NCBI RefSeq assembly: GCF_019890615.1
Contig: NZ_JAINVZ010000012.1
Coordinates: 1 to 64,000 of the forward strand
Direction: 5' to 3'
Source of the DNA: Streptantibioticus parmotrematis
Lineage (GTDB): Bacteria > Actinomycetota > Actinomycetes > Streptomycetales > Streptomycetaceae
Length of the DNA stretch: 64,000 bases
Of the stretch, positions 1 through 54,255 are shown piece by piece. Position 1 is the first letter of the stretch, and each line of letters begins with the position of its first letter. The translations under genes were made by a program, and so were the position numbers. The notes beneath the pieces were generated by a model. That model was not told the DNA's origin. It saw only the letters and a program-made list of their open reading frames with translations, and ran no database searches.

Positions 1-43
1 CGGGCGCGCGCCCCCCCCCCCCGCCCCCCCCCCCCCCCCCCCG
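1..43. repeat. Poly-C tract
   Basis: Positions 10-42 are cytosine except for one G at 23. So long a homopolymer is unusual even for a genome this GC-rich. It may be real low-complexity DNA at an element edge or an assembly or sequencing artefact. No gene is visible in it. Confidence 0.8.
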
Positions 44-75
44 CCTCACCCGCGCCGCCTGAAACCCCCAACCCG

Positions 76-314
76 CTGACAGAACTGACACAACCCCCCA
101 CCCGGGCCGCTGACCTGCACAAACACCCAAGATCACGACTGTGACAAAACCTCCGGAAACTCTGACAGAACCCCGGCCCTCGGTCACCACCACCGGTTGA
201 CACAACCTCCGCCTGGAGGTTCTGTCAGAGTTTTTTGAGGTTTTGTCACGACACCCGAAACCACCAAACCCGCAGGTCAACCCGCCTTCGGCGAGGTTGT
301 GTCAGTTCTGTCAG
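76..314. repeat. Large dyad-symmetric block upstream of the HTH gene
   Basis: Three pairs of inverted blocks share one centre at position 195. The outer pair is 76-95 against 295-314, a perfect 20-bp match (CTGACAGAACTGACACAACC on the left). The middle pair is 111-118 against 272-279, a perfect 8-bp match. The inner pair is 141-172 against 218-249, matching at 29 of 32 positions. DNA between the blocks has diverged, so the blocks look selectively kept. The recurring core is CTGACAGA or TGACACAA. The right half ends just before the start of the HTH gene. Confidence 0.85.
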
Positions 315-358
315 CCAAACCAGGGTTTCCGGCACGCCCCTCCGCCCGAGGAGACACC

Positions 359-553
359 GTGCCCACCGCACAGCCCAAGATGCTGAAGCTTCCCGAAGTC
401 CTCGCCGAACTCGACATGTCCCGAGCCGCCTTCTACCGCATGCGCGCTCGCGGCAAGGGGCCGCGGACCGTGAAGTTGCCGAACGGCCAGATCCGCGTAC
501 GCCGGTCGGAACTGGACCGGTGGCTTACCGCCCACGAAGAACTCATCGCCTGA
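359..553 (+). CDS. Excisionase-like helix-turn-helix protein
   Basis: This is a small (64 aa) MerR/Xis-type winged HTH DNA-binding protein. The HTH runs from about residue 9 (LPEVLAELDMSRAAFYRMRA), followed by a basic wing (GPRTVKLPNGQIRVRRSELDRWL) typical of excisionases that act as directionality factors for a neighbouring recombinase. I chose the GTG at 359 because GAGGAG stands 5 nt upstream. The frame stays open back to 299, but that would put the start inside the right arm of the dyad. A strong hairpin at 566-593 separates it from the integrase, so the integrase may be made from attenuated read-through or its own promoter. A transcriptional regulator of the element is the alternative role. 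Confidence 0.8.
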   Translation: MPTAQPKMLKLPEVLAELDMSRAAFYRMRARGKGPRTVKLPNGQIRVRRSELDRWLTAHEELIA

Positions 554-565
554 TCACACACGTCA

Positions 566-593
566 CGGGCCCCGCACCATCCTGCGGGGCCCG
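566..593 (+). terminator. Hairpin between HTH gene and integrase
   Basis: A perfect 10-bp stem, CGGGCCCCGC paired with GCGGGGCCCG, has an 8-nt loop and is followed by TCCTTGT. It lies between the stop of the HTH gene and the TTG start of the integrase, so it could terminate or attenuate transcription into int. Confidence 0.75.
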
Positions 594-613
594 TCCTTGT
601 CGAAGGAACCACG

Positions 614-2029
614 TTGCTGACCTACGACGTGCGTATCTGGGGTATCCGGAAGCGCAATAGCAAGTCCGCCCCGTTCCAACTCCGCTGGCTCGTCGGTGGC
701 GAGCGTCACCAACAGCCTTTTTCCACGAGCGCCCTTGCTGACGGCCGCCGCGCCGAACTCAAGGAAGCGGTGCGAAGGGGAGAGCAGTTCGACACCGAGA
801 CCGGCCTGCCGGTCTCGGAGCTGCGTGAGCGGAACTCTCCGACCTGGTACGAACACGCCTGCGTTTACGCCATGATGAAGTGGCCGAAGGTCGCCGCGAA
901 GCACCGCGCCAACATCGCCGAGGCGCTCGCGACCGTCACGCCGACCCTCGTGGCTCCCGCCAAGGCGAACCCACCGCCTCGGATGGTCCTTCGCCAGGCT
1001 CTCCTGTCCTGGGCCTTTCAGGCTGCTCGCGATGAGCACGGCCAACCGATCCGTGACGACGACGGAGTTCCGGTACCGCGAAAGGACCGCCAGGAGCCGC
1101 CACTGGAAATCGCGGAAGCACTCGCGTGGATCGCCCGGAACTCCCTCAAGGTGGCCGACCTCAATGACTCGGACGCGCTGCGCCGCGCACTCACCGCCTT
1201 GTCACTCAAGCTCGACGGCACCCAGGCCGCAGAGAACACCGTGAGGCGAAAGCACACGGTGTTCAGCAACGCCCTCCGCTATGCCGTCGAACGCGACCTC
1301 CTGAAGGCCAATCCGTTGGCCCGGATCGACTGGGAGCCACCCGCCACGGATGACGAAGTGGACTTCCGCTACGTGCCGAATCCACGGCAGATGAAGGCCC
1401 TGCTGGAAGGGGTCCGGGAACAGGGAGCACGCGGAGAGCACCTGTACGCGTTCTTCGGGTGCATGTACTACGCCGCCATGCGCCCGTCCGAGGTCTGCCA
1501 ACTCGTGAAGCGGGACTGCAAACTCCCCGAGACCGGCTGGGGCGAACTCATCCTTCACAAGAGCCGTCCCGAGGTGGGCGCGGCCTGGACGGACGACGGC
1601 ACGTCCTACGAGATCCGCGGACTCAAGCGCCGGGCCCGGAAGTCGACGCGCCCGGTTCCGATCCCGCCTGTCCTGGTGGCCATGCTGCGCGACCACTTGA
1701 AGACGTACGGGACCGCGCCAGACGGACGCCTCTTCACGGCCGTTGAAGGTGGCCGCGTCCGGTCGACCGAGTACACCGAGGTCTGGCAGGAAGCCAGGGT
1801 GCACGCGCTGCCGGAGGAGGAGGTGGCCACTCCGCTGGCGGACGTTCCGTACGCCGCGCGGAAGGCCGGCATCTCCCTGTGGATCAAAGCGGGGGTGGAT
1901 CCGGTGGAGGTCGCACGCCGCGCGGGTCACAGCCTCGCCGTGCTCTACAAGTTCTACGCGAGGATCCTCCGCGGCTGGCAGGAGCGCTCGAACGAACTGA
2001 TCGAGGGCGAGTTGAACGGAGGGGAGTAG
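614..2029 (+). CDS. Tyrosine recombinase (integrase)
   Basis: This 471-aa site-specific recombinase would catalyse integration and, with the upstream HTH protein, excision. The N-terminal half carries the arm- and core-binding regions. The catalytic domain shows the first Arg in YYAAMRPSEVC (near residue 295), a basic beta-hairpin (RRARKSTRPVPIP), the second Arg in PYAARKAG, the His in RAGHS and the nucleophilic Tyr in YKFYARIL near the C terminus. The usual (H/Y)DLRH box reads YAARK, so the His after the second Arg is Lys. The start is TTG at 614 with GAAGGA at 603-608. A 20-bp stem terminator and tRNA-Ser follow. It is not closely related to the second integrase at 61883. Confidence 0.9.
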   Translation: MLTYDVRIWGIRKRNSKSAPFQLRWLVGGERHQQPFSTSALADGRRAELKEAVRRGEQFDTETGLPVSELRERNSPTWYEHACVYAMMKWPKVAAKHRANIAEALATVTPTLVAPAKANPPPRMVLRQALLSWAFQAARDEHGQPIRDDDGVPVPRKDRQEPPLEIAEALAWIARNSLKVADLNDSDALRRALTALSLKLDGTQAAENTVRRKHTVFSNALRYAVERDLLKANPLARIDWEPPATDDEVDFRYVPNPRQMKALLEGVREQGARGEHLYAFFGCMYYAAMRPSEVCQLVKRDCKLPETGWGELILHKSRPEVGAAWTDDGTSYEIRGLKRRARKSTRPVPIPPVLVAMLRDHLKTYGTAPDGRLFTAVEGGRVRSTEYTEVWQEARVHALPEEEVATPLADVPYAARKAGISLWIKAGVDPVEVARRAGHSLAVLYKFYARILRGWQERSNELIEGELNGGE

Positions 2030-2168: not shown

Positions 2169-2186
2169 GCAAAACGTCTACCTGCG

Positions 2187-2273
2187 CGGAGGGTGTGGGA
2201 TTTGAACCCACGGTGGCGTTGCCGCCACGACAGTTTTCAAGACTGTTCCCTTAGGCCGCTCGGGCAACCCTCC
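2187..2273 (-). tRNA. tRNA-Ser(UGA)
   Basis: This is an 87-nt class II tRNA. The 5' acceptor strand GGAGGGT pairs with ACCCTCC, the discriminator is G, and CCA is not encoded. The anticodon loop CTTGAAA gives anticodon UGA. There is a long variable arm, and the T arm contains GTTCAAATC. Its 3' end faces the integrase at 614-2029, so it is the likely attachment site of the left element. Confidence 0.95.
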
Positions 2274-54105: not shown

Positions 54106-54255
54106 GCTCCCATCCCGTCCGCCGTCGACCCACACACCGTGGAGCGGGCGTGGTTCAGGGCGTCAAGGTGGAGCGCGCCACTGTACGAACGACCTTGACG
54201 CCCTGGGCCGCGTCTGCTCGGCTCTGCCTGGGTCGATGGTGGACGGGATGGGAGC
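54106..54255 (+). repeat. 150-bp dyad, possible single-strand origin or structured RNA
   Basis: Arms 54106-54169 and 54192-54255 pair about a centre at 54180.5 with a 22-nt loop. Outer blocks match at 25 of 27 positions (54106-54132 against 54229-54255). Inner blocks are perfect over 14 bp (54156-54169 against 54192-54205). Both outer mismatches, and most of those between the blocks, are G.T pairs in the + strand, so folding on that strand is preserved. Rolling-circle elements often carry such a folded single-strand origin. Confidence 0.7.

Follow-up and report, generated by a model that had tools for sequence, protein, structure and literature searches.

A mirror-symmetric iteron array as candidate replication origin of Prim-Pol-type AICEs, probably read by the DUF3987 protein

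Introduction

At the start of the window (by which we mean the whole stretch of 64,000 nucleotides of Streptantibioticus parmotrematis DNA analysed here) lies an array of short repeats arranged symmetrically around one position. From sequence comparison, a structural model and analogy to a described plasmid, we propose with a probability of roughly 0.86 that an actinomycete integrative and conjugative element (AICE) of the Prim-Pol/RepPP type has its replication origin (oriV) in this array, that the DUF3987 protein of the element would be its iteron-binding protein, and that replication would proceed both ways after excision. The sequence-only reading of this DNA had offered three options, namely a divergent promoter-operator, a recombinase/excisionase binding array and an origin of the element. 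The linkage to replication genes, the iterons, their coupling to DUF3987 and the precedent of plasmid pWTY27 all favour the third of these.

A dyad of iterons centred on position 195

Three pairs of inverted blocks are found where they had been reported from the letters alone, as a direct check of the sequence confirmed (Table 1). The outer pair is complementary at 21/21 positions, the middle pair at 8/8, and the inner pair at 91% of 32; the coordinates of each pair add up to 390, and therefore all three share the centre 195. When dyads are scored as complementary runs of at least 7 bp with arms of at most 125 bp, this centre scores 58, the top value of the 64 kb window (the runner-up, at 54180.5, scores 37), and 300 dinucleotide shuffles of positions 45-344 gave a mean of 4.5 and a maximum of 14. 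The second strongest dyad of the window, at 54159-54204, is a simple terminator-like hairpin.

The conserved unit within the blocks is an iteron, YGACA[CGA]AAC, to which each arm adds one TGACCTGC/GCAGGTCA core. The window array contains nine iterons, five pointing rightward and then four pointing leftward. An AAAC-like run accompanies both cores (window 121-124 and 266-269, and in the aligned loci too); it lies on the same strand in both arms, is the clearest conserved feature that is not mirrored, and could be a mark of strand-specific priming.

Table 1. Features of the candidate origin and of its surroundings in the window
Feature	Position	Strand	Remarks
DUF3987 replication gene, probable 3' end, stop TGA 60-62	1-62	+	poly-C contig end; TGA-to-iteron spacing like that of relatives; putative join
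Left outer block	75-95	+	iterons TGACAGAAC 77-85, TGACACAAC 86-94
Left core TGACCTGC	111-118	+	TGA[CG]C[TA]GC in left half of 68/79 origins
Left inner block	141-172	+	iterons TGACAAAAC 142-150, TGACAGAAC 163-171; AT-richer spacer between
Central iteron TGACACAAC	198-206	+	without mirror partner
Right inner block	218-249	-	reverse iterons 219-227, 240-248
Right core GCAGGTCA, reverse complement of TGACCTGC	272-279	-	in right half of 61/79 origins
Right outer block	295-315	-	reverse iterons 296-304, 305-313
HTH_17/AlpA-type excisionase-like gene, 3' of origin	359-553	+	PF12728, E 8e-10
Tyrosine integrase	614-2029	+	phrog_1, E 4e-28; Pfam PF00589 below its cut-off only
Right attachment site, 58 bp, 3' end of tRNA-Ser(TGA)	2186-2243		identical copy at G000:C14:16506-16563

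The host element and its contig ends

The first base of the window is the end of its contig (C4), and the window opens with poly-C; on another contig of the same genome, C14, a DUF3987 open reading frame runs into poly-G at C14:1. These long homopolymers (window 1-42 and G000:C14:1-125) end the two contigs that carry the element, and the split is probably an assembly break within a GC-rich gene end. Because the DUF3987 gene ends in poly-G and the window starts in poly-C, the two contigs most likely join here, which would place the array 3' of the DUF3987 stop codon.

The stretch C14:1-16505 is the apparent remainder of the AICE, with regulators, an FtsK-like transfer gene, a Prim-Pol gene (PF09250, E 5e-44) and the DUF3987 gene (PF13148, E 3.7e-105). 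The last three are all oriented towards the contig end, and for the transfer gene PF01580 (FtsK/SpoIIIE-like Tra) gives E 4e-5 but 23.6 bits, slightly below its cut-off of 24 bits. Together with the window, in which the integrase gene points towards the tRNA-Ser gene, the element thus has an integrase, an excisionase-like gene and an att duplication at a tRNA, as expected of an AICE, and its Prim-Pol gene precedes a replication gene other than RepAM (PF13148), as expected of the Prim-Pol type. Multiple short repeats adjoin the replication genes, as in an iteron-type theta origin like that of pWTY27. A search with the excisionase-like protein against viral contigs returned no relative.

In the two stretches of this element, 9/9 iteron copies lie inside the array, with none in C14:1-16563 (16.6 kb).

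The array travels with the replication genes

Array-like DNA was looked for in 394 family genomes, and 26 of them, own genome counted, gave a DNA match at E <= 0.001. Three of these (G207, G220 and G317, with loci L033-L035) had no array in the stretches read, L033 being a short match, and were counted as chance, leaving 23 genomes. The regions L062, L063 and L065 (wider regions for L034, L035 and a second match in G381) have a short TGACCTGCA-type core only and gave no DUF3987 hit, and were likewise attributed to chance. The mapped set consists of 23 loci from 22 genomes besides our own, L044 and L064 being copies within one genome.

In all 23 mapped loci, DUF3987 and Prim-Pol genes lie upstream of the array and are co-directional, and the DUF3987 stop codon stands 133-145 bp ahead of the projected array centre. 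On the left side, where the sequence-only reading had proposed to look for a divergent gene at the mirror distance, the gene is the co-directional DUF3987, and within window positions 1-700 a scan for sigma-70-like promoters found none; both results speak against a divergent promoter-operator. The worry that the region might be an assembly chimera can also be dismissed: related arrays are found in other family genomes, and a complete Streptomyces plasmid carries one that is 78.8% identical over 307 bp. In NZ_CP107792.1, a complete plasmid of 18,451 bp deposited as circular, the gene order is that of the window and 10/10 iteron copies lie within the array.

The array had been described as standing in front of xis/int genes. 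These genes are indeed downstream, but it is the replication genes that the array accompanies, and xis/int are not its main association. In tblastn searches of the 23 mapped loci, DUF3987 was found in 23, relatives of the integrase in 17 and relatives of the excisionase-like protein in 11. Looser clustering detects an integrase-like open reading frame downstream in up to 76 of 80 DUF3987 loci, forming two loose clusters, each of which occurs with all three iteron classes described below; the idea that the array is tied to one xis/int (integrase) family was therefore given up. The RepAM (DUF3631) plasmid NZ_CP108827.1 resembles the present element in its related xis/int genes and in short repeats, CCGCTACC, in both orientations 3' of its replication gene, but it differs in having its own replication protein and its own repeat, which do not form a clean mirror. 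Its CCGCTACC array, in both orientations, lies at L008:11489-11655.

These results bear on the reading of the array as an operator or promoter of xis-int, to which either the HTH_17 excisionase or the GntR-like repressor of the element would bind. The array is directly upstream of xis, with 45 bp from the last iteron to the chosen GTG start, an integrase-like gene follows in most loci, and an origin array could repress xis too. Nevertheless, DUF3987 is the more constant partner in the mapped loci, the integrase clusters do not sort by iteron class, the RepAM plasmid has a similar xis but not these iterons, the other 16.6 kb of the own element have no iteron, and no sigma-70-like promoter was seen. 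We therefore consider the operator reading improbable. A recombinase/excisionase array fares no better for the same reasons (the tracking of replication genes and the RepAM plasmid with a similar xis), the integrase-like gene downstream in most loci being the point in its favour.

Architecture of the array across the family

Genome contigs were scanned with 16 DUF3987 proteins, and the best 80 of 265 relatives were used. Among these best 80, a motif scan finds at least two iterons in each orientation 3' of the DUF3987 stop in 79; the sole exception, L110, has no usable array and was excluded from the geometry count. Three iteron classes can be distinguished, YGACA (39 loci), CCGCA (29) and CCACA (12). 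In 23/80 loci (L066 and 22 others) the TGA stop codon of DUF3987 doubles as the first three bases of an iteron.

The 23 regions that were read share one layout, which runs from forward iterons through the core and further forward iterons to a variable centre, followed by the mirror of all that. Over the 79 loci, 342/373 forward iterons lie left of the centre and 306/308 reverse iterons lie right of it, and the core occupies both halves in 52/79 (see Table 1 for each half). In the YGACA class both arms mostly follow a 9/56/21 spacing, and four iteron pairs fall on one exact centre in 28/39 loci, with five in one locus. In 10/12 CCACA and 16/28 usable CCGCA loci, just two pairs share one exact centre, a number often reached by random placing. 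Exact mirror spacing is thus clear for the YGACA class only, and the other classes are looser, with more pairs within 1 bp; when five plus four sites were placed at random, at least four pairs within 1 bp arose in 424/20000 trials. AT content, in 11-bp windows, is highest in the spacer that separates the inner iterons, at 0.62 in the left arm and 0.67 in the right; the outer iterons have 0.46-0.55, and the surroundings of the core about 0.3.

The sequence-only reading had taken the array for an old inverted duplication of which only short blocks are kept. This holds in part: in the class of the window the arm spacings are mostly fixed and left and right arms co-vary, and the central spacer is variable. 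The arms were compared in 29 rows with exact geometry, window included, the 11/39 YGACA loci without exact 9/56/21 spacing in both arms being left out. Over all columns, left and right arms of the same locus agree at 0.697 against 0.653 between loci, a difference reached in 0/2000 permutations with relatedness not removed, and the within-locus agreement exceeds permutation in iteron and in non-iteron columns alike.

Such agreement could also arise if the symmetry served a single-strand hairpin (a single-strand origin or an RNA structure) and not protein sites. As a single DNA strand the array region folds strongly (-69.7 kcal/mol, z -11.5), and the authors of the pWTY27 study suggested that its RepA may recognise a stem-loop (PMC3583192). 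However, the stretch from core to inner iteron is not mirrored, and hence not kept complementary, in the 29 aligned rows; the central spacer varies; and some of the covariation comes from iteron bases that switch together according to the DUF3987 variant. No Rfam family matches at the array. We give the hairpin reading little credence.

DUF3987 and the iterons vary in step

What is new here is that the iteron class and iteron base 9 each follow a small feature of the DUF3987 sequence. Residue 434 (numbered as in L100) predicts the iteron class in 81/81 rows, own protein included, and is the one perfect class predictor among the DUF3987 columns tested: arginine occurs with YGACA (40/40), valine with CCACA (12/12), and threonine, serine, alanine or asparagine with CCGCA (29/29). 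A second feature is a GRP motif near the C-terminus. GGRP goes with C as the commonest iteron base 9 (34/34) and xGRP with A (44/44), so that the motif predicts base 9 in 78/78 motif-bearing loci, L111 and L134 having no GRP motif and being left out. This second rule also holds where class and motif are mixed, xGRP occurring in six YGACA loci and GGRP in one CCGCA locus. The C-terminus of our own DUF3987 is cut by the contig end, yet R434 and GGRP can still be read.

In 20 further loci, the residue-434 rule holds in 19/20 and the motif rule in 20/20. This set is what remained of 40 rows after removing 15 identical to the tree set (own element among them) and 5 repeats; nine of the 20 had iterons known beforehand, and the L060 and L061 proteins were known before the motif count, so that these were not blind. 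The exception, L196, has T434 with CCA iterons, yet its M433 is like that of other CCA proteins. L210, a member of the family, obeys both rules. Beyond the family, at 32-55% DUF3987 identity, no such array was seen downstream in the 15 loci read of 16 found (L229 left out). Three distant DUF3987 loci of another family, L220, L223 and L224, have other repeats downstream (CGTTGACA, CGGTGACA). In L093 a stop codon interrupts the DUF3987 frame ahead of the motif, so that the gene may be broken, and the array is intact.

As a control, Prim-Pol columns were compared with DUF3987 in 70 of the 80 loci: the best Prim-Pol column accounts for 0.49 of the class information and DUF3987 for 1.0. This control is weak because the Prim-Pol proteins align poorly. 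A column of the L007-like integrases predicts the class perfectly too, but it has 7 residue types among just 18 loci and was regarded as overfitted. On the full tree the iteron classes require 6 changes; a quick tree that leaves out the C-terminal part requires 8. On supported branches of the quick tree without C-terminal columns, the independent changes are V434 with CCACA in 4/4, R434 with YGACA in 2/2 and GG with base-9 C in 3/3, none being contrary; with so few independent changes, no single sign test is able to reach 0.05.

Two elements in one Streptacidiphilus genome, L100 and L101, have DUF3987 proteins that are 96% identical and iterons of different classes. Of 491 residues 21 differ; R434N is the sole change in 391-451, and six more fall in 452-481. 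This pair is a natural test case for origin compatibility.

We found no description of a coupling between DUF3987 and iterons in the open-access literature searched. The covariation supports the view that DUF3987 is the protein with the binding specificity for these iterons, and on this sequence evidence the origin is probably read by it.

Predicted structure of DUF3987

An AlphaFold2 model of the relative L100 (pLDDT 86, pTM 0.79) suggests where these two features lie. The model has a C-terminal winged helix, with residue 434 at the end of its helix 2 (429-435). GGRP (472-475) belongs to the wing, the loop that connects strands 460-462 and 479-482, where pLDDT is about 75. When the ATPase region was compared by VIA, which considered only chains pre-ranked by Foldseek, all 50 listed rows were MCM or CMG structures, and the best match was the archaeal MCM 6mii (Z 17.9, rmsd 3.6 A, 266 residues). 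A Foldseek search of the PDB with the DUF3987 model gave nothing at E <= 0.001, a sequence search turned up no solved relative that was convincing, and Pfam assigns to the protein the DUF3987 domain only, with no match to an MCM family. In the model, the ATPase region thus resembles MCM helicases, and since neither Foldseek nor sequence gave a significant match, the likeness is one of fold only.

DUF3987 domains have been predicted to be helicases of mobile elements, and the winged helices of other primases have been suggested to recognise origins (PMC5862659, in the part consulted). According to the model, the protein is like MCM and MCM-like mobile-element helicases (for example DUF927 of SCCmec in the same source) in combining the ATPase fold with a C-terminal winged helix; unlike in those helicases, the winged helix here appears, from the covariation, to read the iterons.

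Comparison with described replication loci

The sequence-only reading knew of no described element with such an arrangement; plasmid pWTY27 has a closely similar one. According to the sections of its report used here (PMC3583192), the replication locus consists of repA, repB (a predicted primase/polymerase) and an adjacent iteron sequence of 300 bp, which contains repeats both ways and a long discontinuous inverted repeat; all three are required for replication. RepA footprints the long inverted repeat, and the locus with telomeres attached propagates in linear form, which was read as bidirectional replication. As this locus has already been described, origins of this kind are known. Like pWTY27 as described there, our element has a predicted primase/polymerase and a protein of about 500 aa (522 aa there) adjoining a non-coding iteron array of about 300 bp, in which one repeat recurs in both orientations and the inverted repeat is long and discontinuous. 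Unlike here, where the repeat is YGACAGAAC, that of pWTY27 is GTGGGAAC; the likeness is drawn from the published description. A scan for two copies of GTGGGAAC matched 117/394 genomes; a reversed-pattern control also matched many, and the scan was uninformative.

pWTY27 also bears on the reading of the array as a clt-type site for conjugal transfer, bound by the FtsK-like TraB. Such sites carry direct and inverted repeats as well, and one clt direct repeat of pWTY27, TGACACC, is close to the iterons here. Yet the clt of pWTY27 overlaps a tra gene, apart from the replication iterons (both in PMC3583192, as far as consulted), whereas the present array abuts replication genes and not tra, and its iteron class tracks DUF3987. 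We consider a transfer site improbable.

Among AICEs, the element is closest to the SLP1-type (RepPP) elements, in which the Prim-Pol gene SCO4617 is followed by SCO4618 (PMC3218068). The likeness is one of gene order, in that the replication gene behind Prim-Pol is not RepAM. In the survey text covered (PMC3218068), no origin sequence was found for the SLP1-type Prim-Pol/RepPP module.

A proposed mechanism

We propose that two half-origins face each other. Each arm carries its outer iterons, a core of the TGACC[T/A]GC type and a pair of inner iterons, which are set some two helical turns apart and enclose the AT-richer spacer. After excision, DUF3987, as an MCM-type AAA+ ATPase-like protein with a C-terminal winged helix, would bind the iterons of both arms. 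The complexes on the two arms, being oppositely oriented, may then melt the AT-richer spacers and load helicases that face opposite ways, whereupon Prim-Pol would prime and replication would proceed both ways. Melting, loading and direction, and with them the order of events, are modelled on MCM biology and on pWTY27.

In the code that we suggest, the end of helix 2 (residues 433-434 in L100 numbering) would read the first three iteron bases, R434 selecting TGA or CGA, F433 with T, S, A or N selecting CCG, and M433 with V or T selecting CCA, and the wing would read base 9, GGRP selecting C and xGRP selecting A. The winged helix would thus be expected to tell apart the variants TGACAGAAC, CCGCAGAAC, CCGCAGAAA and CCACAGAAA, and an R434 protein to prefer TGACAGAAC over CCGCAGAAA. 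That MCM-like initiator-helicases of AICEs read their own mirror-symmetric origin by this two-part code (433/434 for the 5' triplet, the wing for base 9), switch origin specificity by very few changes, and both recognise the origin and open it as a head-to-head pair, we hold to be slightly better than an even bet.

Implications

AICEs of the Prim-Pol type gain a concrete candidate origin, none being described in the survey text covered (PMC3218068), and DUF3987, so far a protein of unknown function, becomes on sequence and model evidence a likely origin-binding helicase. The coupling rule would allow the match between element proteins and origins to be predicted, and with it the elements that may be compatible within a single host. 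If the code is true, a single protein would both recognise the origin and open it as a head-to-head pair, and very few changes would suffice for an element to acquire a new origin specificity, for instance so that several elements could share a cell.
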